This document shows positions 735 to 21,974 of a stretch of 64,000 nucleotides of DNA, one piece after another. Within the stretch, counting starts at the first letter, position 1, and every line of letters starts with the position of its first letter. The position numbers and the translations under genes are program-made. The notes beneath the pieces are model-generated. The model was not told the DNA's origin and did not search any database. It saw only the letters and a list, made by a program, of their open reading frames with translations. This DNA comes from Batrachochytrium dendrobatidis JAM81. Taxonomy: Eukaryota; Chytridiomycota; Chytridiomycetes; Rhizophydiales. Location of the stretch: assembly GCF_000203795.2 (NCBI RefSeq), contig NW_006281116.1:79195-143194 (forward strand), read 5' to 3'.

Positions 735-1996
735 TTATTCGGCTTCGTTCATTTTAGGTGCAAGATAGTAACGAATGAATCCAATCTCATTCACTTTGTA
801 TTCTACTAACAATGGATACTCGTTGGACATGCTCAATGTAACCGTCTTGGACAGGGGGGTGGCCTTGGTGAAGTTGGACAAATACTTGAGAGAAAATGTA
901 AGACTGCAAGCTTGTTGGAGTTCAATAGTTGTCGATGTGTCTTCACTATCGTCAATGGACATGCCTGGCTTGAGAGTAATATAGCCGCTGCCAATATCAC
1001 CTTCAGTCATAAACCGAACGCTGTCTTTTGCACACTCGATTGTAACTGTTTAGCAAAAAATGTATTGAAACAATTCAAGCATGTTAGTTGTGGCTCTACT
1101 TAAATATACAGCATATTGATTCAAGCCGATCATAAAAAACTCAACTGGATTCGGACAAAGTACTCATATCACGGCAGATACGTTGAAATTCGACAGAGGA
1201 CATCTTGACAACCACATCGTAGTTGGAGTCGGGAATACCCAAATGCTCACTGTCAATATCCATCAATTTCATCTCAAACTCGCTACATCTTTCAGAGTCT
1301 GGATCAATAGTAGTGACGTTTAGAGGATTCAACAATGATTAGTAAATATGAAGGCGAGGTTATTCGTGTCCGAAAATTAATCACATCGTGCAGAAAAATA
1401 AACAGAGAATTAAGAGCATTAATGCACTACAAAAACTGGAAACTTCAAAACAGTACTAAATAGACTGTAACAAGAGTACTGTTTTACAGGACCAAATAAA
1501 AACAGATCCAAACTGCACTATTTGCAAAAGTACAAGTAGCAGTGCACCATCAACAGCACAATAGCAATACAATGACTGCCCAGCAGAATAAAACAATCAA
1601 CACTGAAACAATACAAAGATAGATCTGGAACAAGTTCCTAGAATAAGTTGAAGCAATAGTACTATGGTTATGCTTACCGGGAGCCTCAAAGACCAGTGTC
1701 AGGACATCTGCGTTCTCACCAGCACGCAGAGTCAAGACATCTTCGTTAGAAGCGCATTTGAGGATCTTTCCTAGACTAGCAAGAGAAATGCCAAGACTGG
1801 AATTTCTGTCGCAACGGTAATGTTCGAATCCGCTTGAACGCAACAACAGAGTCACAAGAGAGATGTGGGAAGTATCCATTGCCTGTAAAGCAATACCAGT
1901 CTCATTGCATTCAAAGTTGGCATCAGTGACTAGTTCTTTAACAGCATCAAGAAGCTTTTTAAGAGTCGAGGCATGTTGCAGACGAGCTTCGAGCAT
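735..1996 (-). CDS. PCNA: Proliferating cell nuclear antigen (DNA sliding clamp)
   Basis: This is the homotrimeric clamp that tethers replicative polymerases, FEN1 and ligase to DNA in the nucleus. Three exons (1996-1678, 1298-1146, 1045-735) join in frame to give 260 aa, the family's normal length (~258-261). The N-terminus MLEARLQHA, the DNA-facing segment ending [16 protein letters not shown], the interdomain region ([19 protein letters not shown]), [18 protein letters not shown] and the C-terminal YYLAPK are all PCNA hallmarks. I chose the start at MLEARLQ because the upstream in-frame extension has no family similarity. The gene is head-to-head with the Nudix gene, start codons ~118 bp apart, so a shared promoter is likely. 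Donors are GTAAGC and GTTGAG; the second is weak, but the joined frame supports it. Confidence 0.96.
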
Positions 1997-2114
1997 TGTA
2001 TAAGAGTCGATGTAGTCAAGCCAGTGATGATCGCAACAATTTATTACGATCTCAACACCCTCAGGACTACAGTGCATTGGATTTGAACAGTTCAAAACTT
2101 GATCTCATATTCCC

Positions 2115-3797: not shown

Positions 3798-6700
3798 TCA
3801 GGGTTTGGGCTTAAGCTTTACCCGTCCATCAACCAGAAATGCAAGAGGAAGTTTGGTTTTAGATCCATCCGTTCGCTGCACAATCAGGTCTACATCACCG
3901 ATTGTAACAATTTTGATGGTGAATTTGGACCCATTGTCATACAAATCTGCTCGATCATCTACCTTGTACCAGTGGCCCTGTAAACGTAGCTGACCATCAG
4001 CAGTCATGGCTTCAACAGGGAGTGATTGAGAAGTGTAATGTACGTTTGAATTTAGCATGTCTGATGTAATGACAGGCATGCCAGATGTGCTATGCGTAGT
4101 GTGATTTGATTGCAGTTGTGAGGGTGCGAGATGTAAAGCCTGAGGTTGAGGCTTCAGCTTGGAGACGGATTGTGAACATCCTGTTGATGCATTGCTTGAA
4201 TCCGCTCGAACGATTGACCCATGAGTATTTTTCAAAGGATTATCTTGATGACAATCTAGTCGATGCATGTGTGGCTGGGATGTCAATGCTTGCTGACGAG
4301 ACTGGGCTTGTGATATATGCTGAGACATATTCGTTGAAAGGCTCACTTCTCCATGAGTGGTATGTGCAGATGACGTGAGACATGGTAAATTATTGTCACA
4401 TGCTAGACTGACAGGAGGTAAAGCTGAAGAGTCTGTATGAGATTTGGCTGTAGATGTCTGTGGCAATCTGTTTGATGTTGAGATAGCAAAAAGCGAAAGG
4501 GTTGCTGCAGGTTTTGGTAGTGACGGTGCCATCTGTTAATCATTCAACTATTAGATATCGCAACAACGTCTTGAAAGACCATGACCAATCAAACTATATT
4601 TAGCATGAGAAGACTAATGTCAATCACACTTTACCCCAAGTTCTTTAAAGTCCAGTTCTCTGTCCTTGTCCGATAACCCAGAAAGTGTGCATGCAGGAAA
4701 CCCAGGAAACTCTTCCATGACAGAATTCCATTCATCAACATTGGCCTGATCAATTCGACGACGCTTAATTCTGGTCTCTTCATCTAATATCCATGCATCT
4801 AAGTGAAATATTAATCATGATGAGTTAATTTCTAGTAATCCAATCATGGATGCAAACATATATACCTCTAATAGAATCGTTTATGTGAGCACGCTCGTAA
4901 TGAAGCTGCCATCTCTTTCGACGCAATTGATCCTGCATTTTTTTCCGAAGCCCAAGCTTCTTTGCCAAAAAGTTTGTGTGTGCCTTGTAAACAGCAGCTT
5001 GATAAGTGACTTCATTGCGCTGAGCCACAATCCTCTCCAACCCAGTAGTAACACGTATATGATCTGTATGTTTCTGTTCAATGTCTTCAAGTAAACTGCA
5101 AAGACTCGGATGAGTGCCTGAAGTTGAGCCAAAAAAGGTAGTGCATTATTCATACCAAAAAAGGTAGTGTATGTAGATATGTGCTATATTGTTAGAATCA
5201 AGCCCTACACTTCAACATCAATCTACAAGGTGGTACTGACCATTCCGTATGGTTTCTGCTTCGCGATCTGCAAAGGCTGCTTGTCCACTATACCAACTAC
5301 AAAGCCACAAAAGAAATTTAGTAAAACGAGTATTTGAAACAGTAAAAGGACGTCGACTATCATAGCTGTAAGCACAGCATACATGTACTTACAGTTGCTG
5401 TATTCTTGCAAAATAGGTTTCGATATGAGAAAGAAAGACTAACGCCTCTTTTCGTCTGGCCTCATTCTGAATGTCTAATATGTAATGAGCGTAAAAAGGT
5501 TAACATATACATATGTTTTATACTCGGATATCATCAATGGTACTTGCCTTGTTCTTGAAGAATGGGCTCTTCCTCCGCGTCTTTTTCCATTGACTTGTCA
5601 ATATCTTCGATTTTTACTTTGTCCTCTGGTTCATCTATCGACACCTCTACAGATTGAGCTGCACAATCTCTGATTCGTGACTCTATAGACAAAGCTCCAT
5701 CTTCTAGCAGATCAGGCGGTCTACTGTTTGTACTTTTCTTTTCGACTTCATGAGCCGAAGCTTCCATTATCATCTCATTAGAATCCGTATTACAATACAC
5801 ACCCGAGGTGAAAGAGGGGTTTTTTGAATAGACTTTAGAATCATGTATTAGATCTAGGGAAGCTGTACAAGACTTGCTGTTTGTTGAAACATGTGGTATA
5901 TTGTCATTTGGCCTAATTCTGTGTACTGGTGTCGGCACCACTGGTGAATTCTTTCGAGTCAAAGATGACTCTGTTGTGAGATCCAATCGGTCTTGTGAGT
6001 AGGAGGCTGGCTTATCGAGTGTTGTGCATGATACAGATGATATCACGACTTGCTGCCTGTCCAAAGATTCGTCCATTAGCTGTTCTTGACATGGCTTTTT
6101 GAGAATGTGATGGCTGCCATTTAATTGAGAAGACAAAAGATAGCTGGTCGAGCCATGCCTCTGATCACTGGTACCTGACTGGATTTGGGTTTCTAATCCT
6201 AATTGAGTAGTGGATGAATCGTCGCATGCGTTGGACGGAGATGTTGGTCGGGTGGACGGACTAAGGGCAGGGGATTGCATTAAAGCCGCTGCGGAAGATG
6301 AACAAGTAGAATGTGATGGGATAAAAGGTTGGGCTTGAAGTGAACTAAATGATTCGGTAGCATCATCAGTAGTGGGTGAAGCTCTAGTGCCTGTGGCAGG
6401 CGGAGAGTCTTGTCGAAAAGGAATGCATGTGTCAGCTCTAGTAGCGGATTGAGAAATGTCCACTGCAGTAGATATTGGTAAGTTGGAAGAGCTTACAGTA
6501 GCACCATTGACAGCTGATCGAGTAGCTGCTGTCTCTGTATGGATTGATATAGATGCCAAATGTGCATCGCTTGCATTGGCACTTTTGTTGCTTAAACTTG
6601 TACTTTCATGCACCAATAACTTGGCACCTTTATCCTTTTCATGAATTAGCAAAGATGCATTGGTTGCTCTCCCTTGCTTTCCCAAGGAAGCTAAAACATC

Positions 6701-6943
6701 AGTAGAGCCTGTGACGATATTGACTGTTGAATAAGGGGTTGTTGATCCTTCCATAATCGCATTGATATGAGTATGTGAAGAGCTGGGTTGGTGCATACTT
6801 GGAGTCAAAGTGTTGACAGAAGCAATCAAGGTTTGTGGCTGAGATAAAGTTGCGGCAGTATTAGAATTATCTGCAGAGTGGGATGCAGTAGGGCCCATTG
6901 TCATGGTCATTGTACGGCCAGAGTCTGTAAGAGTAGGAACCAT
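3798..6943 (-). CDS. SDS3: SDS3/SUDS3-like subunit of the Sin3-HDAC corepressor
   Basis: Nuclear scaffold subunit of the Sin3/Rpd3 histone deacetylase complex. Six exons (6943-5548, 5474-5393, 5287-5241, 5117-4866, 4798-4635, 4532-3798) stay in frame and give ~891 aa, longer than yeast or human SDS3 because of a ~465-residue Ser/Thr/Pro-rich N-terminus. The middle carries the Sds3/BRMS1 coiled coil (ARRKEALVF, LLEDIEQKHTDHIRV, YQAAVYKAH, LRRKRWQLHYERA, ETRIKRRRID). The last ~65 residues match the SUDS3 C-terminal module (GHWYKVDDRADLY ... VQRTDGSKTKLPL). The intron after 5548 appears to be GC-AG. The start is uncertain: a good acceptor (TCTTACAG) lies just inside the first exon, so an upstream exon could supply the true start. 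Confidence 0.83.
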
Positions 6944-7224
6944 GTAAGATCAGCGATGCTGGCCTAAGCTGTTTTAACCTTCAAAACTTGAATCAGTAAA
7001 GAACTAGCTTGAATCAACACAGGATATAAACAGGCTTGAAATTGATTGAGTGTATATCGATGCTCTAGGACCAGAGCCTCAAAGTCCTAATGCAAGCGCT
7101 CAAATGTGAATTGATGTTTGGGCTCAACCTTGGCTTTTGCCTTTCCTTGAATTATCGAAATTCTTGCTAATCTTTTGATCAAGTTTTGTTTTCATAGCAA
7201 TTTCACGTGACTCATTTGATCAAC

Positions 7225-8052
7225 TACAGCCGCATTCACGTAAAGTGAAACGCTAGACAAGGATGTTAAAGTATAATAAACAGTTTCATGAAATGTAATT
7301 CACATCAAATTTACTAAACAGTATTGTGTCCTGTAAACTCTGACAAAGTTTACTGACTTTTATGCTCATCCTTGCATAGAACAATTACATGAACATGAAC
7401 ATTACAGTTTCAGTAAACACCACATCTGACACTTGTTCAATCTCTTTTTGTACAAATCAGACATTGTGCAATTGGCAAACGACTGCCGCATTACTCAAAT
7501 ATGCAATCTTGTTTTTTGAACTCGAACGTGAATGTATGAGATTCAGAATACAACAAACTTCTTTAGCTTCATACTTGCTCCAGGTATTCCTTGGTTGTGT
7601 GTAGAGTATTCAGCTCATGCTTTTTAGAATTCCAAGCCAATGTATGCCAATGAACCTGTTGTTCAGAACGCGCATTTGCTATTGGGTTATCAAAGGTTGA
7701 TAGTTGTAATTCAAAGTTGTTGGAAACTATCCATGTCAGAAAGACAGCGCCTAGTTGATTGAAGTTGGTGTTTCTACTGGTATTGTTCAAAATCTCGGAC
7801 ATTTGATAGATTCGCTGTATGTAAACAAACCCATATCTTTTAGTTCTGAAACAACTCTTTGAATAGACAAACCAATGGTGCTCGTAACGAATGTTACATT
7901 GTAGAGATCAGAGTTGTCGTTGATGTTCGAGGTTGACATGCTGATGTGTAAAGAAACTGAAAAATATAAAAACCAAGTCAACACGACGAGAATTTGTAAT
8001 TTAAAAACATTCACAGTTGAACCACATTTCTGATTTTGTGAATACGACTGTA
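7225..8052. mobile_element. TIR element copy 1 (composite, carries an ORF)
   Basis: It begins TA|CAGCCGCATTCACGTAAA and ends GTGAATACGACTG|TA, the same terminal inverted repeat and TA flanks as the other family members. The left ~330 bp (to about 7555) is clearly homologous to the interiors of the copies at 18.7, 19.6 and 22.0 kb. After that the sequence is unrelated until the right terminal repeat, and this foreign stretch contains the minus-strand ORFs described separately. TA flanks and CAG-starting ends fit Tc1/mariner-type elements; no transposase is present, so it is non-autonomous. Confidence 0.6.
7569..8014 (-). pseudogene. Broken secreted-protein-like reading frame inside TIR element copy 1
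   Basis: Frame one (8014-7787) starts with a credible signal peptide (hydrophobic ILVVLTWFLYFSVSL) followed by a polar mature region. It stops, and the sequence continues in another frame (from ~7820 down to 7569) as an open ~80-residue stretch. I found no intron that joins the two frames, so I read this as a frameshifted gene or one with an unresolved intron. No family is recognised. The stretch has no counterpart in the other element copies. Confidence 0.3.
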
Positions 8053-8098
8053 AATAGAATTTTATTTCAGCAATTAAAAACCTGGAAAATGAATTTTT

Positions 8099-11000
8099 TC
8101 AGGGGCGGTAATTAGCAATGGTTTGGGCAGGTGGTGCATAGCTCCCATATATAGCTGTATTTTTCGATTCGTAATTGAGGAAGGGATCTGCAAGACGAAT
8201 TACGACAATTGTGTCATCTGGACGAGTGCGACCACGGTATTTACGACCTGGGATAGGAGAAACAGTAGCGGAACTGGTTGGTTTGATAGCTGTTGTGATA
8301 TCATCCTCTTCACAATCCTCAGAAGTTGTAGTGGCAGTGATGGATCCAGTCTATCAATGTCATACACAATCAGTAATTAGTCGATATACCACGATCGTTT
8401 AAATCTATACCAATCATAATAGTTCAGCAACTTACAGTTGGTGCAGTGACGACAAGACGGAAGTACATGTTTTTAGGAGCATTAGTACTGCCAAGGTTGC
8501 TAGTGCAGTCGGGGTACCACCTGCAACATTACAGACTAGTTAGTACTGATCTATAGCTTAGTCTGCATATCTAATCAACAGTCAACTTACATGGCACGAG
8601 CAAGTTGAGGTCTGGTCATGGCATCGAGTGTTGGGATAAATGTCCACCAAGGATCGCTTAAAGAGTTGCACACATCACTGGTCTGTGTGTACCATGCTCT
8701 GTCATCAAAGCTAACATTGGTATCCCATCCCTGAGCAGGAGTATTACCAATCATGACAAATTTGTTGCCAGTTGATCCGGTGAACGTGAATGGTTTGCCG
8801 TCAATGTAAACAGCGGCAAACAGACCAGAAGCACCACCGGTATCGTGTCCTGTAATGGAAATCAACCAAGGTCCGTCACCATACACAACTTGATTATAGG
8901 TTTGAAGAGTTTTCCAGTTGGTCGAATTCTGAGGAACGGTGTACTGCACAGAGTTGATTTTCATTTCGTAGTAGTCATCAACTATTGCAAATAATCAAAT
9001 GTTAGTATGTGTATTGGCACGATATAAACGTGGCAGTGATACTTACCAACCATGGTAATGGTAATAACGTGGGTAGCAATTGGAGCAACTGCCGAGGTGG
9101 TAGTGGCAACCGCTGCTGGTGAAGTGGTAGTGGCAACCGCCGCTGCTGAAGTGGTCGAGACTTGAGCAACTGGTATCGATGTCGGTGCAGTCTAATGTCG
9201 TGTACAATCAGTAATTAGTCGATATACCACGATCATTTAAATCTATACCACTCATAATGGTTCAGCAACTTACAGTTGGTGCAGTGACGACAAGACGGAA
9301 GTACATGTTTTTAGGGTTTGCAACTGTGCCCGTGTTTCTGCAGTCAGGATACCACCTACACGGTTTAATGGATTACATTTGCGTCAAAATGTAAGTAAAA
9401 TTTATGAGAATTTACAACATGACGCGAATTCGTAGTATATATTTACAACTTACATAGAACGGGCTACTTGTCCTTTGGTTTGTTGATCAAGAGAAGGGAG
9501 CATAGAGTTCCACATGTTGGTTATTGGGCAGTTATCAGTGGTTTGAGTAAACCACTGCGAGTCGTCATAGTTGATATTGGTGTTCCAGTTGGTAGAGGGC
9601 GTATTGGGACTCATGACGAATTTGTTATTAGCTGTGGCGGTTGTGGAATAAGGAGATCCATCCAAGAAAACGCTTGCAAATAAACCAGCAATGGTTCCGT
9701 AATCATTGGCGTGAACTGCAATCAGCCATGGGCCGTTACCAGTAACATTTTTAGTGTAGGTTTTGATCGTATACCAGCTCGAATCAGAGTAAGACACACT
9801 GTAGTCAGTTCCATCAAAAGTAAGAGAGTAGCTGTCGTCAACTGTAAAATGTAATTAAAATAAAATGTTTGATTAAATGTGTTGCAGTGCATGTAATCAA
9901 TGATCCAAATGGACTGCAATACTATTTACCATCCATGGTAATGGTAATAACGTGGGTAGCAATTGGAGCAACTGCCGAGGTGGTAGTGGCAACCGCTGCT
10001 GGTGAAGTGGTAGTGGCAGCAGACACGTAAGCGGCAATGGTCGAGACTTGAGCAACTGGCATTGAGGTCGGTGCGGTCTAATGTCGTGTACAATCAGTAA
10101 TTAGTCGATATACCACGATCGTTTAAATCTATACCAATCATAATAGTTCAGCAACTTACAGTTGGTGCAGTGACGACAAGACGGAAGTACATGTTTTTAG
10201 GAGCATTAGTACTGCCAAGGTTGCTAGTGCAGTCGGGGTACCACCTGCAACATTATAGACTGGTTAGTACCGACCTATAGCTTAGTCTGCATATCTAATC
10301 AACAGTCAACTTACATGGCACGAGCAAGCTGAGGTCTGGTCATGGCATCGAGTGTTGGGATAAATGTCCACCAAGGATCGCTTAAAGAGTTGCACACATC
10401 ACTGGTCTGTGTGTACCATGCTCTGTCATCAAAGCTAACATTGGTATCCCATCCCTGAGCAGGAGTATTACCAAGCATGACAAATTTGTTGCCAGCTGAT
10501 CCGGTGAACGTGAATGGTTTGCCGTCAATGTAAACAGCGGCAAACAGACCAGAAGCACCGCCGGTATCGTGTCCTGTAATGGAAATCAACCAAGGTCCGT
10601 CGCCATACACAACTTGATTATAGGTTTGAAGAGTTTTCCAGTTGGTCGAATTCTGAGGAACGGTGTACTGCACAGAGTTGATTTTCATTTCGTAGTAGTC
10701 ATCAACTATTGCAAATAATCAAATGTTAGTATGTGTATTGACACGATATAAACGTGGCAGTAATACTTACCAACCATGGTAATGGTAATAACGTGGGTAG
10801 CAATTGGAGCAACTGCCGAGGTGGTAGTGGCAACCGCTGCTGGTGAAGTGGTAGTGGCAACCGCCGCTGCTGAAGTGGTCGAGACTTGAGCAACTGGTAT
10901 CGATGTCGGTGCAGTCTAATGTCGTGTACAATCAGTAATTAGTCGATATACCACGATCATTTAAATCTATACCAATCATAATAGTTCAGCAACTTACAGT

Positions 11001-14000
11001 TGGTGCAGTGACGACAAGACGGAAGTACATGTTTTTAGGAGCATTAGTACTGCCAAGGTTGCTAGTGCAGTCGGGGTACCACCTGCAACATTACAGACTG
11101 GTTAGTACTGATCTATAGCTTAGTCTGCATATCTAATCAACAGTCAACTTACATGGCACGAGCAAGTTGAGGTCTGGTCATGGCATCGAGTGTTGGGATA
11201 AATGTCCACCAAGGATCGCTTAAAGAGTTGCACACATCACTGGTCTGTGTGTACCATGCTCTGTCATCAAAGCTAACATTGGTATCCCATCCCTGAGCAG
11301 GAGTATTACCAAGCATGACAAATTTGTTGCCAGTTGATCCGGTGAACGTGAATGGTTTGCCGTCAATGTAAACAGCGGCAAACAGACCAGAAGCACCACC
11401 GGTATCGTGTCCTGTAATGGAAATCAACCAAGGTCCGTCGCCATACACAACTTGATTATAGGTTTGAAGAGTTTTCCAGTTGGTCGAATTCTGAGGAACG
11501 GTGTACTGCACAGAGTTGATTTTCATTTCGTAGTAGTCATCAACTATTGCAAATAATCGACTGTTAGTATGTGTATTGGCACGATATAAACGTGGCAGTA
11601 ATACTTACCAACCATGGTAATGGTAATAACGTGGGTAGCAATTGGAGCAACTGCCGAGGTGGTAGTGGCAACCGCTGCTGGTGAAGTGGTCGAGACTTGA
11701 GCAGCTGGTATCGATGTCGGTGCAGTCTAATGTCGTGTACAATCAGTAATTAGTCAATATACCACGATCATTTAAATCTATACCACTCATAATGGTTCAG
11801 CAACTTACAGTTGGTGCAGTGACGACAAGACGGAAGTACATGTTTCTAGGGGTATAAGAATCACCAGGAGTGCTAGTGCAGTCGGGGTACCACCTGCAAC
11901 ATTATAGACTGGTTAGTACCGACCTATAGCTTAGTCTGCATATCTAATCAAAATAGTCAACTTACATGGCACGAGCAAGCTGAGGTCTGGTCATGGCATC
12001 GAGTGTTGAAATAAATGGCCATCCAATAACTACAGAGTTGCACGAATCACTGGTCTGTGTGTACCATGCTCTGTCATCAAAGTTAACATTGGTATCCCAT
12101 CCCTGAGCAGGAGTATTACCAATCATGACAAATTTGTTGCCAGCTGATCCGGTGAACGTGAATGGTTTGCCGTCAATGTAAACAGCGGCAAACAGACCAG
12201 AAGCACCGCCGGTATCGTGTCCTGTAATGGAAATCAACCAAGGTCCGTCACCATACACAACTTGATTATAGGTTTGAAGAGTTTTCCAGTTGGTCGAATT
12301 CTGAGGAACGGTGTACTGCACAGAGTTGATTTTCATTTCGTAGTAGTCATCAACTATTGCAAACAATCAAATGTTAGTATGTGTATTGGCACGATATAAA
12401 CGTGGCAGTAATACTTACCAACCATGGTAATGGTAATAACGTGGGTAGCAATTGGAGCAACTGCCGAGGTGGTAGTGGCAACCGCTGCTGGTGAAGTGGT
12501 AGTGGCAGCAGACACGTAAGCGGCAATGGTCGAGACTTGAGCAACTGGCATTGAGGTCGGTGCGGTCTAATGTCGTGTACAATCAGTAATTAGTCGATAT
12601 ACCACAATCATTTAAATCTATACCAATCATAATAGTTCAGCAACTTACAGTTGGTGCAGTGACGACAAGACGGAAGTACATGTTTTTAGGAGCATTAGTA
12701 CTGCCAAGGTTGCTAGTGCAGTCGGGGTACCACCTGCAACATTACAGACTGGTTAGTACTGATCTATAGCTTAGTCTGCATATCTAATCAACAGTCAACT
12801 TACATGGCACGAGCAAGTTGAGGTCTGGTCATGGCATCGAGTGTTGGGATAAATGTCCACCAAGGATCGCTTAAAGAGTTGCACACATCACTGGTCTGTG
12901 TGTACCATGCTCTGTCATCAAAGCTAACATTGGTATCCCATCCCTGAGCAGGAGTATTACCAAGCATGACAAATTTGTTGCCAGTTGATCCGGTGAACGT
13001 GAATGGTTTGCCGTCAATGTAAACAGCGGCAAACAGACCAGAAGCACCACCGGTATCGTGTCCTGTAATGGAAATCAACCAAGGTCCGTCGCCATACACA
13101 ACTTGATTATAGGTTTGAAGAGTTTTCCAGTTGGTCGAATTCTGAGGAACGGTGTACTGCACAGAGTTGATTTTCATTTCGTAGTAGTCATCAACTATTG
13201 CAAATAATCGACTGTTAGTATGTGTATTGGCACGATATAAACGTGGCAGTAATACTTACCAACCATGGTAATGGTAATAACGTGGGTAGCAATTGGAGCA
13301 ACTGCCGAGGTGGTAGTGGCAACCGCTGCTGGTGAAGTGGTAGTGGCAACCGCCGCTGCTGAAGTGGTCGAGACTTGAGCAACTGGTATCGATGTCGGTG
13401 CAGTCTAATGTCGTGTACAATCAGTAATTAGTCGATATACCACGATCATTTAAATCTATACCAATCATAATGGTTCAGCAACTTACAGTTGGTGCAGTGA
13501 CGACAAGACGGAAGTACATGTTTCTAGGGGTATAAGAATCACCAGGAGTGCTAGTGCAGTCGGGGTACCACCTGCAACATTACAGACTGGTTAGTACTGA
13601 TCTATAGCTTAGTCTGCATATCTAATCAAAATAGTCAACTTACATGGCACGAGCAAGTTGAGGTCTGGTCATGGCATCGAGTGTTGAAATAAATGGCCAT
13701 CCAATAACTACAGAGTTGCACGAATCACTGGTCTGTGTGTACCATGCTCTGTCATCAAAGTTAACATTGGTATCCCATCCCTGAGCAGGAGTATTACCAA
13801 TCATGACAAATTTGTTGCCAGTTGATCCGGTGAACGTGAATGGTTTGCCGTCAATGTAAACAGCGGCAAACAGACCAGAAGCACCACCGGTATCGTGTCC
13901 TGTAATGGAAATCAACCAAGGTCCGTCGCCATACACAACTTGATTATAGGTTCGGAGAGTTTTCCAGTTGGTTTCGTTTTGAGGAACGGTGTACTGCACA

Positions 14001-15094
14001 GAGTTGATTTTCATCTCGTAGTAGTCATCAACTATTGCAAATAATCGACTGTTAGTATGTGCATTGGCACGATATAAACGTGGCAGTGATACTTACCAAC
14101 CGCGGTAATGGTAATAACGTGGGTAGCAATTGGAGCAACTGCCGAGGTGGTAGTGACAACCGCTGCTGGTGAAGTGGTAGTGGCAGCAGACGCGTAAGCG
14201 GCAATGGTCGAAACCTGATTGGTATATCCGTAAGTTGGGGCAGTCTAAAGAGTAAATATACATTGTTAGCAGTCTTCATGACTTATTTTATCATGGCATC
14301 AAAACAATTTAATGTAGACGGACTTACAGGTGGGGGAGTCACAAGCAAACGGAAGTACATGTTTTTAGGGTTTGCAACTGTGCCCGTGTTTCTGCAGTCA
14401 GGATACCACCTACACGGTTTAATGGATTACATTTGCGTCAAAATGTAAGTAAAATTTATAAGAGAATTTACAACATGACGCGAATTCGTAGTATATATTT
14501 ACAACTTACATAGAACGGGCTACTTGTCCTTTGGTTTGTTGATCAAGAGAAGGGAGCATAGAGCTCCACATGTTGGTTATTGGGCAGTTATCAGTGGTTT
14601 GAGTAAACCACTGCGAGTCGTCATAGTTGATATTGGTGTTCCAGTTGGTAGAGGGCGTATTGGGACTCATGACGAATTTGTTATTAGCTGTGGCGGTTGT
14701 GGAATAAGGAGATCCATCCAAGAAAACGCTTGCAAATAAACCAGCAATGGTTCCGTAATCATTGGCGTGAACTGCAATCAGCCATGGGCCGTCGCCAGTA
14801 ACATTTTTAGTGTAGGTTTTGATCGTATACCAGCTCGAATCAGAGTAAGACACACTGTAGTCAGTTCCATCAAAAGTAAGAGAGTAGCTGTCGTCAACTG
14901 TAAAATGTAATTAAAATAAAATGTTTGATTAAATGTGTTGCAGTGCATGTAATCAATGATCCAAATGGACTGCAATACTATTTACCATCCATGGTAATGC
15001 TGATAGTATGAGGGGTGTTTGGTGCAGCAATAGCGCTGAGACCAAAGCTTGCAAAAAGGATGGCTTTCCATCCGATACTTTTCGCAAACAACAT
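8099..15094 (-). CDS. Giant secreted tandem-repeat protein with eight lectin-like modules
   Basis: One gene of 25 exons, all joined in frame, predicting 1715 aa. Exon S (15094-14986) encodes a signal peptide (MLFAKSIGWKAILFASFGLS...AIAAP). Then come repeated cassettes D-W-L. D exons: 14897-14510, 14031-13644, 13194-12804, 12353-11966, 11543-11153, 10705-10315, 9841-9454, 8981-8591. W exons: 14409-14328, 13571-13487, 12733-12649, 11893-11809, 11082-10998, 10244-10160, 9355-9274, 8520-8436. L exons: 14244-14097, 13404-13260, 12566-12419, 11726-11609, 10915-10771, 10077-9930, 9191-9047. Last exon 8350-8099. D+W form a ~155-residue domain (GDGPWLISITGHD, GLFAAVYIDG, NKFVM, DDRAWYTQT, MWYPDC, MYFRLVVT) resembling a beta-sandwich, galactose-binding-like fold; L is an Ala/Thr-rich stalk. 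No membrane span or GPI signal is evident. The carbohydrate-binding or adhesive role is inferred; I know no named family. Confidence 0.85.
8436..14897 (-). repeat. Tandem array of eight ~840 bp three-exon units
   Basis: D-exon starts are spaced 810-866 bp apart (8981, 9841, 10705, 11543, 12353, 13194, 14031, 14897). Units 2-6 and 8 are type A (MKINSVQYTVPQN...); units 1 and 7 are type B (SYSDSSWYTIKTY...). Introns inside units are almost as similar as exons. Linker exon L4 (11726-11609) is about 30 bp shorter than the others, by loss of one Ala/Thr-coding minisatellite step. Confidence 0.9.
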
Positions 15095-15871
15095 TTCGAT
15101 AGCAATAACGTAAAGGATCCGAGGGGATATAAACACGATATTTAAGCTATACGAATACTAAATAAGAGAGTGGGTCCAATTATGAGGCGATGAATATGGA
15201 GAAAATTAGCAAATCGTGAGTGGATGCAAAATAAACCGTGAATATGAAACGAATTAAAAGAGATATGGATGGGTCCAATTATGAGGCGTGTGGATATAAA
15301 GCACATTTTGGGTGGATTCAATTATGAGGCGTGTGGATATGGGCGCTTGTAGTTTTTTTGAATCATTCACGACTATCAACAGTGGGAAAGAATGAAGATA
15401 CGAATAAAAAATTGCCAGCAACCATCGCCATCAATGTGCATCATGTGCACGAGAAAGTATCGCACGAATTTCATCCAACCACTTTTGTGTGTGGTCGGAT
15501 TTGTTTTTGTTGCTTCTGTAATTCACTACCAAATACAGTGTTTTTCTGAAGCCTAGATTGTATAAAGCTTTTATTTTTGATGGCGATGCAAGCTTGCAAT
15601 CCACAATGTAAGCCTGTAATTCCCAAAATCCCTTGCTCAAGCTTCAAAAGGATACTGAGTTTGGTAGTGAATTGCAGAAGCAACAACGAAACTTGACCAC
15701 ACACGAAAGCGATTGAATCGGATTTGAATGATTAAAACACGATTCACAGCCATGGCGATGGTTTCAAACAGTTTTTCATTTCCTCTGTTCTCATCCTTTT
15801 GTCATAGCCATGAGTGGTTTAAAATTGTTCATTCATGAAGCTGACTATTTTTATACTTTGACTCTTGTATT
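15095..15871. other. Divergent intergenic region between the secreted repeat gene and Ku70
   Basis: About 780 bp separating two divergently transcribed genes. Apart from the three direct repeats at 15171-15340 I see only short, unconvincing open frames (15331-15549 +, 15431-15704 -). It presumably holds both promoters. Confidence 0.55.
15171..15340. repeat. Three direct repeats upstream of the secreted repeat gene
   Basis: The motif GGGTCCAATTATGAGGCG occurs at ~15172 and ~15271, and with two changes (GGATTCAATTATGAGGCG) at ~15312. The second and third copies extend into TGTGGATAT. They lie 80-245 bp upstream of the start codon at 15094, so they could be regulatory or the remains of a local duplication. 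Confidence 0.6.
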
Positions 15872-18800
15872 ATGGCGACTGGCAGTCCTTCAGATAGAGT
15901 AATGCATGCTAGATTGTAGTGTATTGCAGAATGCCAATCCTTTTTTTGAGTTGGTTGTATAACACTTTCATTCTAATCGAACTTGCTTTATAGTCACTGA
16001 CAGCAACCACGTCTATACCAAACTGGCGGGTATTGCCATATGAATCGGACGATGATGACACTAACGAGTATTTTTCAGGATTAGGAGAAACCAAAGTAAA
16101 TATTAATACTGCATCAGATGTCATGATTCAAGAACCATCTGTTAGATTTTACTGGATGCTGATTCACCACTCCTCTCAATACTACTCTTGAATGCTATAA
16201 GGAGAGATTACAAGACAAATATTGCGACTTATTTCTAGTCGATGCAGCATTCCAAATGCATCAAGTGCCCGACGGCCAATCGATCTCTCCATTCAATACT
16301 GCATTATCTAGCATTGCTGCCTATCTTCAAACCAAGGTTTTTGAAAGCAATTCAGATACCATTGGCTTGGTCTTTTACGGAACTGTGAGTATAAGCTTGT
16401 TGTCAGAGCAATAGAGTACCGTTAAAATAACACATCAAACTACTGATTGGTTTTTCAAAATACAATCCTTGTATTTATATTCAAGAATACAACGCAGAAT
16501 GCCATGCACGCAAAATCAATATATGTCAAGTATGATTTAGATCTCCCTGATATCAATCGAATTCTCGAGTTAAAACATATGGCCAAAGGTACCAGTTTGT
16601 CAAGTAAATGTGCATAACGCATTTTATTATTGCAGTCATCTAAAAACAGTGTAGATTCTTCTGTGTTTGAAAGTCAGATCGGATCTGCTACTGACCCATA
16701 TAATTACAGTGATGTATATTGGGTTGCCTTGTCTATATTTTCAAAAAGGTGTTGTGTTGATATAATCAACTGTAGCCATTCATAGATTAGTGCACTAACT
16801 CAAATATACATTTTTCGACTATAGTGCACCTCGACTGGCACGAAAACGCATCTTTGTCATTACAAACCAAGATCTGCCAACCAGCACTGATGCACTATCA
16901 CTGGCAGCCACTCGTTCGCGTATTTCGGTAATTTAAAGTTTTGTTTTTACATTTAACTAATATTTGTTAGAATTGGCTTAGGAAGCTGGTGATACAAATG
17001 GATAGTTAACTTTCGGTCATTTCCCAAAACAGGAGCTGGAGAGCATGTATATATCGGTGGAGCTGTTTGCAATTGACAAATCAGATACAGATTTTTTTGC
17101 GCTGAATCTGTTTTACAACCAAATTCCCGAGTTTTGGCTGGGAGATGATGTTGATCTGACTACTATTCCTTCAAGTGACAACTTTTCGGAACTTTGTAAT
17201 CGCATTCTGCTTAAAAAATTTAAACAAAGTATTGTGTTTCGAGTTCCATTTACGCTTCCAGGAGGATTTAGAATCGGTGTAAAGGGGTGAGAATATCTAT
17301 TTCATGTTGAATTGTATGCCAAGTTTGATTTTATTGATATGTATATTTTGGATTTGTGAAATTACAGAACATATCTTGTAAAGGCTAAGAACGGTCAATC
17401 AGTTAAACATCTCGAGCACTCTACAATGAAACAAGTAGATTTTCAGTCTATATTAACGTGCATGGTAAGCATGAGACATTATGATATACAACGTATTGAT
17501 CATTTCTGAAATATGTTTGATAAATATATATCAGACTACGGGGCAGTTGATGATTCCTGATGATCTCAAGCTATGCTATTCATTTGAAACCGAAAAAGTG
17601 AGTCATTCAACTTGCATGTGATTGCTTGTTGGAATATATGTATATATACTTGTTTTATGTATTGACAATATGTAATTTAGGTTGTGTTTACAAATGAAGA
17701 AAAGTGCAATATTAAATCATTTGGAGAGCCGCAACTAGTTTTGGTTGGATTTATGGATGTTTCGGATTTAAAGGCCAAGCACAATCTTCAAGCCTCGGTG
17801 TTTATTACTCCAGATGAAAAGGTAGTTTTTGTATTGTTATGCAACTCAAACCATTTTTTATACTCGACACAATCTATTCAATTTTAATATTATTTCAACT
17901 GGTTCAATTCATAGCAATACTCTGGAAGTTCTTCATTGTTTTCTCATCTACTAAAACAAATGTCGAATCGAAACAAATTGGCAATATGCAAGCTTATTGC
18001 TCGCGTGAATTCTGTACCACGCATGATTGCACTTTTACCACAAATACAGGGTGTTGGTTTTTTTGGTAAAGAGCTACTATCGGGATTTCATGGTATTTAT
18101 CTTCCGTTTGGTGATGATTTGAGAGTGCGCAAGTATGCTCCCAGGTTTGTCCCACCCGAACTTGTGGATGCTGCAAGTGAATTGTTGAATCATGCTTCCA
18201 ATGCTACTATAGACTTTTCTCTCTTTAACAATCCTGGTAAGATATCTATTGAGTTTGGTTTATTTGAGTTGGTATTTTAAAAATAAACTTGTTTATGATT
18301 ATCAGTTCTAACTTTGACTACAGTGATTGATCGCCATAATGCTTATGTCGAAGCTTTGGCACTTGGGCAAGATTGTCCTCGTGAAACTCTTGACGCTACC
18401 ATGCCAGATGAGCAAGAGATTCATGATACATATGGTGACTTTATTCAAAATTTTAAATCTGTAAGTTTAGCTGCAGTAATAGTTTTTGCATGAGAATTAA
18501 ATATATATCGCCATATTGACAAACCATATAATTACACTTTAGGTTTGCCAGGTATATAACTCGCAATGCAATGACAATGAGCCGACAACGGGGATTGACA
18601 TTGCGAAACGAACAGTAAGTTGAATGGACTTTATCATTTGGATTTGTATACTAAATGCCATTTTGATACTGTCGTATTCACGTAAAATGGGATTTGTATT
18701 TATTTTACTTTTATCTTGCTTGAGAATAGTCAATATTTAAATATTCATTGTTTTATATTATAAATTGACTTTAACTGTCATTCTTGATCCTTGTTCCAAA

Positions 18801-20208: not shown

Positions 20209-20323
20209 TCAAATAAAGACGAACACTTCAAGACAATAAGCCACAAAACGAACATCATGAGTTTATCTGTCAAGTTGTTTATTTTGAAATTTCTTGTTTA
20301 GAATTCTGGATCGGCTTTTACGC

Positions 20324-21974
20324 ATGAATATTATTGTGTGCAGACAGCAGTCTTGTTTATGGAATGGTGTTGCTGTGAAGAATAGTCTGGTCAAGAGACT
20401 ATTGTCTACTAGCAATGCTATTTCAAAAGGAATCAACATTGCAACAGCATATCCATTCAAGCCAGCTGCCCTTGATCATTATCAACCTCGTCCTTATGCG
20501 CGACTGGACAGGATATCATCAGTACAACGATTTCAAGTTCGAGGAATAGAAACAGATGTGGCCGGCTGGTCTTCTATGCATCTACCACAAGTCAACATGG
20601 TTATATCGGAAACAGGAGAAGATGGTGTTGCTTTGTATTGGGGACGACCAGGATACGAACCTAGGTCTCCAGCCAATATCAAACCAGACGATGGTGGTAG
20701 ATTCCATTATGCTTGGCTACGTGACAACTGTCAGTGTCCATCTTGCATCTTGGAGAGCAATGGCCAAAAACTGCACTCGTCTGCCAGTGTATCTTCCACT
20801 GTCAAGCCTGTTTCCATATCTGTGGTCAATACTAATTTGGTCATTGAATGGCCAGCTGACAGCTTGTGTCAATCAAACGGTGTTCCAGTAAAGTCAGAAC
20901 CTCATAAAAGCGAGTTTAGCATTGAATGGTTGCAGAGCAACAACTATAATCAACAGCCACGATCTCCATCAACAATTCGCTCAATTCGATGGGATGGTGC
21001 ATATCTGAAAGCATGCACTCATCGAGTATCGTATGATGAGTTTTTTAATCACTATAGTGGCCTCAGAAGTGTCATACAGCAGCTACACGACTTTGGGATC
21101 TGCTTCCTTACAGATGTACCCACGGACGATAAGCGAGTGGAGCATCTAGCCAAGCGTATGGGATGTATTCAAGAAACCTTTTATGGAACAAGCTGGGATG
21201 TACGCAATGAGCCTGATGCCAGTAATATTGCGTATACATCGCTGTACCTCGGACTTCACATGGATCTGATGTAAGTATATTTCCTGCTAGCTTATAATCA
21301 TTTCAAGTTTTTCTCGTTAGATTTCATTCGAGTCGAACCAACATTCAGATTGCCAAATTCGACACGATTCAAATTACAATACAAGCTTGGGGATTTATAG
21401 CATTCATCAAATGACTACTTTGATCTAAATATACAAATTCTGACAACCTTTTGTTTATAGGTACTATGAGTCTCCGCCAGGACTACAGCTTCTTCATTGT
21501 CTTCAAAACAATGCCACTGGGGGTGAATCTACTTTTGTTGACTCTCATATAGCTGTAGAATTGCTCAAGCGAGAGTATCCAGATCACTACAAGACTCTCA
21601 CAAAAGTGCCCATCATGTTCAAGTATCAGAAAGATCTGCACCACATGCAGTATCGTCACCCAACAATACTGGAAAACGATCAAGATCTTGGCCTGCAAGT
21701 ATACTATGCACCTCAATTTCAAGGACCATTGGATGCCACACCAGACTTAGTCTTGCCCTTTTACGAGGCATTCAGTGTGTTTGAAAGTATTTTGAATCGA
21801 AAAGAGTTGCTGTATACTACTTTGTTGCGGCCTGGGGACTGTGCCATTTTTTCAAACCGTCGTATTTTGCATGGAAGACAGTCGTTTGACCCACAGTCTG
21901 GTGTTCGACACCTTAAAGGAACATACATTAGTTGGGATGATTTCAAAGATTTGGTTCGAATTCATCTCATTTAA
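20324..21974 (+). CDS. Gamma-butyrobetaine / trimethyllysine dioxygenase (carnitine biosynthesis)
   Basis: Fe(II)/2-oxoglutarate dioxygenase of the BBOX1/TMLHE family. Two exons (20324-21270, 21461-21974) give 486 aa. The N-terminal DUF971-type zinc module has HYAWLRDNCQCPSC. The catalytic part shows FYGTSWDVRNEPDASNIAYT, the HxD metal pair (LHMDLM), LLHCLQNNATGG, and the C-terminal iron/2OG region RRILHGRQSF followed by RHLKGTYISWDD. The first ~60 residues are Arg/Ser-rich with few acids, suggesting mitochondrial import. Reading to gamma-butyrobetaine rather than trimethyllysine as substrate is a guess. It is bracketed by two same-orientation TIR elements. Confidence 0.88.

Follow-up and report, generated by a model that had tools for sequence, protein, structure and literature searches.

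A putatively secreted eight-module protein of Batrachochytrium dendrobatidis encoded by a three-exon cassette that appears to be gained and lost in frame

Introduction

Can a gene built from repeated exon cassettes gain and lose whole protein modules without breaking its reading frame, and what might such modules do? The question is raised by a gene in a 64,000-nucleotide (nt) stretch of the genome of the frog-skin chytrid Batrachochytrium dendrobatidis JAM81 (RefSeq assembly GCF_000203795.2, contig NW_006281116.1, positions 79,195 to 143,194 of the forward strand), which we call the window and whose numbering is used throughout. A preliminary description had reported there a protein with a signal peptide and eight modules, each encoded by a cassette of three exons named D, W and L. 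From the comparison of its sequence with those of its relatives, the gene appears to expand and contract by whole cassettes, in frame.

Proteins that differ in their number of modules have precedent in B. dendrobatidis. The CBM18 proteins of this species are multi-module and lectin-like, and their module number varies between strains (PMC12204190); that of the window protein also appears to vary. However, CBM18 is a different, named module, and an intron-cassette arrangement is not described for it in the available portion of that report (PMC12204190).

Structure of the eight-cassette gene

The gene lies on the minus strand, with its ATG at 15094 and its stop codon at 8099, and its 25 exons join across 24 introns into one open frame of 1715 amino acids (aa), the exon sum being 5148 nt, or 1716 codons including the stop. 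An exon of 109 nt with the signal peptide, judged by eye, is followed by eight sets of three exons, in which D measures 388 or 391 nt, W measures 82 or 85 nt and L spans 118-148 nt, the final L exon of the gene running for 252 nt to the stop. The linkers between modules are rich in Ser/Thr/Ala/Pro. All 24 introns are GT-AG and 65-100 nt long, and all eight cassettes repeat one pattern of intron phases, with phase 1 ahead of D, phase 2 at the D/W border, phase 0 at the W/L border and phase 1 again where the following D starts. Because the cassette, 810-866 nt from D to D, starts and ends at phase 1, every gain or loss of a cassette stays in frame. Retention of any intron leads to an in-frame stop (24/24), and two of the 24 have a length that is a multiple of three. 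Against this exon table, the coordinates, eight D-W-L cassettes, phase pattern and frame sum of the preliminary description proved exact to the base, the strand being minus.

The exons are listed below as given by the exon table, with module types for modules 1, 2 and 7 taken from a comparison of introns and exons, and the conserved tail segment from the tails of relatives.

14986..15094, minus, exon 1, start codon and signal peptide (by eye)
14510..14897, minus, D exon, module 1 (type A)
14328..14409, minus, W exon, module 1
14097..14244, minus, linker exon 1
13644..14031, minus, D exon, module 2 (type B)
13487..13571, minus, W exon, module 2
13260..13404, minus, linker exon 2
12804..13194, minus, D exon, module 3 (type B)
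12649..12733, minus, W exon, module 3
12419..12566, minus, linker exon 3
11966..12353, minus, D exon, module 4 (type B)
11809..11893, minus, W exon, module 4
11609..11726, minus, linker exon 4 (short form)
11153..11543, minus, D exon, module 5 (type B)
10998..11082, minus, W exon, module 5
10771..10915, minus, linker exon 5
10315..10705, minus, D exon, module 6 (type B)
10160..10244, minus, W exon, module 6
9930..10077, minus, linker exon 6
9454..9841, minus, D exon, module 7 (type A)
9274..9355, minus, W exon, module 7 (A/B mosaic)
9047..9191, minus, linker exon 7 (type B)
8591..8981, minus, D exon, module 8 (type B)
8436..8520, minus, W exon, module 8
8099..8350, minus, final exon, C-terminal tail carrying the conserved DDTIVVIRLADPF segment, and stop

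Two database proteins, P0002 and P0003, back the splice model independently, at the level of database annotation, since in signal peptide, modules, linkers and tail their sequences are those of the window protein. In the genomic and protein sequences compared, we found no point in favour of the alternatives that the cassettes belong to several separate genes or that the locus is a pseudogene. Splice sites and phases are consistent in 24/24 introns, the joined frame is free of stops over 1715 codons, and database proteins carry four modules in a single chain. Separate genes were rejected on the strength of the one continuous frame through all 25 exons, and we give this whole class of explanation almost no weight. 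No membrane-spanning segment was seen in the tail of the window protein by eye, with no predictor run, and an Rfam scan of window positions 6000-17000 returned no match.

Module types and copying within the array

The modules fall into two types, A (M1 and M7) and B (M2-M6 and M8). Across D and W, protein identity is 98% within A and 88-100% within B, but 47-48% between A and B. Introns within B are 89-100% identical, about as alike as the exons, whereas those of A and B are unrelated (47-57%); M1 and M7 agree in their first two introns save for a 2-nt length difference. As the introns follow the A/B split like the exons, the copies arose by recent duplication of genomic DNA and not of processed RNA. 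Module M7 is a chimera, in which an A-type D exon and first introns are followed by a mixed W exon; beyond it the W/L intron is of type B, and the linker does not differ from L2 and L5. Cassettes M2-M5 show pairwise identity of 94.0-98.2% over about 0.84 kilobases (kb) including introns; M6 is 90.3-95.5% identical to these, the lower values being due to the type-A intron ahead of M7, in which its stretch ends. The cassette repeats are not due to chance.

Copy number variation

Both P0002 (tag QVD99) and P0003 (tag O5D80) are named Batrachochytrium dendrobatidis and represent the product of the window gene with four modules, in the order A-B-A-B, between the same signal peptide and tail. The two tags do not appear in either of two genome papers searched for them; MT418 corresponds to CLFT044. 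When the proteins are cut near exon borders, 12/12 pieces of P0002 and 10/12 of P0003 have an exact counterpart in the window protein, the remaining two P0003 pieces differing from it by 1 and 3 residues. Pieces that stand side by side may have their sources in two window modules, as in P0002, where W7-L7 comes after D1, and the two proteins are not identical to each other. At the level of protein sequence, such mosaic pieces are the trace expected of unequal crossing-over or gene conversion between cassettes. The preliminary description had called the protein expandable, and these four-module proteins that recombine window exons support it, the comparison of four with eight modules resting on the records as deposited and holding if these are correctly assembled. 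Homologue queries of 586, 156 and 589 aa admitted proteins of 0.55-1.75 times the query length; forms of more than about four modules fall outside this range.

The difference between eight and four modules might instead be an artefact of assembly or annotation, either by collapse in the four-module records or by false expansion in the window assembly. Cassette identity reaches 98.2%, and repeated genes are reported to collapse in short-read assemblies of B. dendrobatidis (PMC12204190). Weighing against genuine variation, the mosaic modules of P0002 and P0003 could also come from collapse. However, the seven full cassettes include no identical pair, with at least 18 differing columns, P0002 differs from P0003, and orthologue-like proteins of other species carry one or two modules. 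In addition, variation in the module number of CBM18 in B. dendrobatidis has been published from long-read genomes (PMC12204190). We consider an artefact unlikely, and prefer gain and loss of whole cassettes.

A further protein, P0020 (ENA, longest contig 985 bases), has a single type-B D exon that combines the start of M2 with M6-like sequence. This is either a further recombinant form absent from the window or a collapse in assembly.

Relatives in other chytrids and paralogues in the genome

The first 586 aa of a paralogue, used as a homologue query, returned 17 proteins, 16 named Batrachochytrium and 1 labelled Hompol1, which is taken here as Homolaphlyctis polyrhiza. In B. salamandrivorans, protein P0008 combines two modules with a long stalk rich in Ser/Thr. 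Protein P0023 of Polyrhizophydium stewartii, a relative of the single-copy kind for which the preliminary description had suggested searching, combines a stalk with a single module. Both share with the window protein the tail segment DDTIV(V/I)IRL(A/S)DPF(P/L).YE. From these sequences P0008 and P0023 look like orthologues of the window gene, and a one-module protein with the layout signal-D-W-stalk-tail is therefore the probable origin of the array. The C-terminal DDTIVVIRLADPF..YE (window 8099-8350; P0008; P0023) is thus conserved in three species beyond a variable stalk. In P0024 of Boothiomyces, one module is joined to a DUF642 domain, which belongs to a wall-associated galactose-binding-like family. 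No relative was found in prokaryote genome contigs, nor among plasmids and phages searched with P0023.

Gene models for three paralogues, on contigs C26, C33 and C1, were built in the present analysis from genomic sequence. The C26 paralogue (L037 2023-7152) has eight modules in 1530 aa. Its module 1 alone has the three introns, in the same phases as in the window gene; modules 2-8 form one exon of 3768 nt, and a final phase-0 intron lies ahead of the tail. Because these intron patterns differ, the two eight-module arrays would have been built in two ways, by copying with introns in the window and by copying an intronless unit in C26. The first carries introns in every module, the second in its first module and once ahead of the tail; as eight-module paralogues within a single genome they form a natural pair on which the mode of module copying can be tested. 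The C33 paralogue has two modules, no introns and a Pro/Gly-rich linker. The C1 paralogue (L039 2577-5913) has one module, a long Ser/Thr/Ala (STTTDA-type) repeat and a phase-1 intron only. At its C-terminus a membrane-spanning-like segment, identified by eye, is followed by a short tail with two NPLYE motifs, and it looks like a membrane-anchored surface protein.

Family and fold of the module

Against a profile of the Pleurotus ostreatus lectin and CBM67, the D part scores 50.7, a value that none of 100 column shuffles approaches, the highest of them reaching 17.2, and the similarity to the Pleurotus lectin spans the region from an Asp pair to an FDD.W motif. The D-[D/N] pair is kept in 38/41 module stretches covering both residues, and the module Cys in 53/55 (D) and 54/54 (W); for these counts the profile was masked at those columns, and 21 of 62 distinct stretches, which do not cover both pair residues, stand outside the 41. 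An earlier Asp-pair count of 35/37 came from rows chosen by a pattern that loosely required such residues and the W-exon Cys. On this profile evidence the P. ostreatus lectin and CBM67, with their Ca2+-type sugar-binding jelly roll, are relatives of the D part. The module appears to belong with the Ca2+-type jelly-roll sugar-binding domains, and we liken it to the CBM67/Pleurotus lectin type rather than filing it as a member.

The P. ostreatus lectin (PDB 6t1d, 6t0q, 6kc2, 6li7, 6kbq) and Shictin carry a jelly-roll sugar-binding domain in tandem copies, as the chytrid protein has its putative jelly-roll modules, and in these lectins the Asp-Asp pair binds Ca2+ (PMC11512411). However, they have two domains and lack the eight-fold array. 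CBM67, of the same fold family by a weak model, has an ADN motif where the chytrid module has VDD or ADN; it is part of an enzyme, whereas the chytrid protein has no catalytic domain. A low-confidence structure model agrees with a lectin-like jelly-roll fold (Foldseek, VIA); a structure model of P0018 has a mean predicted local distance difference test (pLDDT) score of 49.4 and no structural match at E<=0.001. The term lectin and the galactose-binding-like fold hinted at in the preliminary description are thereby supported at the level of homology and of a weak model.

Its statement that the module could not be placed in a named family agrees with the Pfam results, in which all module rows fall below the curated cut-off and the sole row above it is DUF642, in another part of P0024. 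Pfam scans of the module alignments gave best E-values among members of 0.035 and 0.0081. The matches closest to the cut-off on whole P0002 were one to a topoisomerase zinc ribbon (E 6.5e-5, 23 of 25 bits) and another to Lipase_3 (E 4e-4, 20.7 of 22 bits); the two were rejected as short and below cut-off. A PDB sequence search with alignments A1, A5 and A6 and with P0024 and P0025 gave no trustworthy match, and the rhamnosidase N-terminal family PF08531 was 0/1 in this genome.

Could the module be closer to PA14-type or bacterial Ca2+ adhesin repeats? PDB rows for the PA14 domain of the RTX adhesin 6m8m (E 1.1 and 0.11) align on the Asp-Asp motif, Foldseek lists PA14 rows at probability 0.95-0.99, and NCBIfam Ca_tandemer (NF033510) is matched by 9/17 modules (best E 0.0032, bits and cut-off being absent from the member table). 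However, these matches are weaker than that to the CBM67/Pleurotus profile, in a comparison that PA14's own profile stood outside, and the rows for 4p99 and for RTX-adhesin repeats cover about 35-55 residues. We regard a closer kinship with PA14 or adhesin repeats as improbable, and retain the likeness to the CBM67/Pleurotus lectin type.

Strand order and possible circular permutation

In the known domain a W.IW...FR segment (W.IW..FR in the P. ostreatus lectin) stands ahead of the Asp pair, whereas in the chytrid module a similar-looking segment stands behind it, as the W exon. The same holds for the one-module proteins P0023, P0024 and the C1 paralogue, which have nothing similar ahead of the D part and the W segment after it. 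The chain order of the CBM67/Pleurotus lectin type is therefore not found in one-module proteins, and on this account the module is likened to that type instead of being filed under it. Given this reversed order, also in one-module proteins, the module may be a circularly permuted CBM67/Pleurotus-type lectin domain, with the first strand segment MWyPdC...YFR now the C-terminal W exon. Within an array, the W strand might fill out the module to which it belongs or reach across the linker into the following one, in which case neighbours could be strand-linked into one chain, with a valency that depends on how many cassettes there are; the old chain ends would lie at the D/W border, and the new ones at the phase-1 intron ahead of D. 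We put this forward tentatively, with somewhat less than even confidence.

In a permutation test on 41 module rows, which included four accidental second starts of the same modules, the W-D order scored 65.7 locally (reached by 0/100 W-shuffles) and 60.5 globally (reached by 2/100). In a repeat on 37 rows, with the four second starts dropped, columns trimmed and the consensus placed first, W-D scored 63.2 versus 63.6 for D-W locally, W-shuffles reached the W-D score in 285/300 cases locally and 68/300 globally, and rotations across a wide range scored alike. A 15-row run lacking the first strand gave 56.1 for W-D versus a maximum of 56.2 in 100 W-shuffles. As the two versions of the profile test gave opposite answers, the permutation is not established by sequence testing and is offered as a hypothesis. 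Residues 152-343 of the low-confidence model (W1, linker, D2) align to the lectin (VIA); this would mean strand sharing between neighbours, but the model is too weak for reliance.

Function and significance

From its signal peptide, its eight D+W modules of putative jelly-roll fold, the linkers that join them and its conserved tail, the product is probably, though by no means securely, a secreted multivalent lectin-like protein of variable valency. Each module would bind sugar via Ca2+ held by the Asp-Asp/Asn pair, and unequal crossing-over between near-identical cassettes, introns included, would add or remove modules. Valency, and hence avidity and reach, would then shift with module number, a flexibly linked chain of Ca2+-type lectin modules, as many as eight, gaining in both with each module. 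That the ligand might be a host skin glycan rather than a chytrid wall glycan or an environmental polysaccharide is the least certain part of this proposal.

Alternatively, the modules may be galactose-binding-like in fold and the protein structural, a component of the wall matrix that binds self-glycan or protein and not a lectin for host or substrate. Fold likeness says nothing on function, and relatives occur in the saprobic chytrids Homolaphlyctis, Polyrhizophydium and Boothiomyces. Homolaphlyctis and Polyrhizophydium are called saprophytic (PMC12204190). Attachment to animals is therefore unlikely as the ancestral role. However, a Ca2+-type Asp pair kept in 38/41 stretches, together with multivalent arrays, suits sugar binding better, and we view a wall-matrix role as doubtful beside a lectin-like one.

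In B. salamandrivorans, skin galactose steers attachment and zoospore adhesion is galactose-dependent (PMC8490390). Two ricin-B, two legume-like and one ConA-like lectin are named from its genome, and the module family is not among the lectins named in the available part of that report (PMC8490390). The titles and abstract openings among the matches listed in literature searches likewise do not describe the family. For Batrachochytrium, the modules would add one more lectin-like family; Pfam has no model for it, and its valency seems to change as cassettes are gained and lost in frame. Large secreted families without recognizable domains were reported by Farrer 2017 (PMC5364385). The B. dendrobatidis "adhesins" of Rosenblum 2012 are secreted repeat proteins, some with length alleles, defined by signal peptide, glycosylphosphatidylinositol (GPI) anchor, repeats and predicted glycosylation (PMC3502224). 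The window protein was compared on repeats, and by direct comparison, rather than with the program used there, it has at least 2 repeats of at least 9 residues, which is the repeat part of that definition.

Flanking sequence

A 32-nt repeat (family D14) adjoins the start codon upstream, with two near-identical copies at window 15266-15340 and a third, seen by eye, near 15170; these are possible promoter elements. Neighbouring open frames lie at window 1550-2095, which we take to be PCNA, and at 20294-21974, presumably a gamma-butyrobetaine dioxygenase-like enzyme. The array gene is therefore surrounded by ordinary genes.
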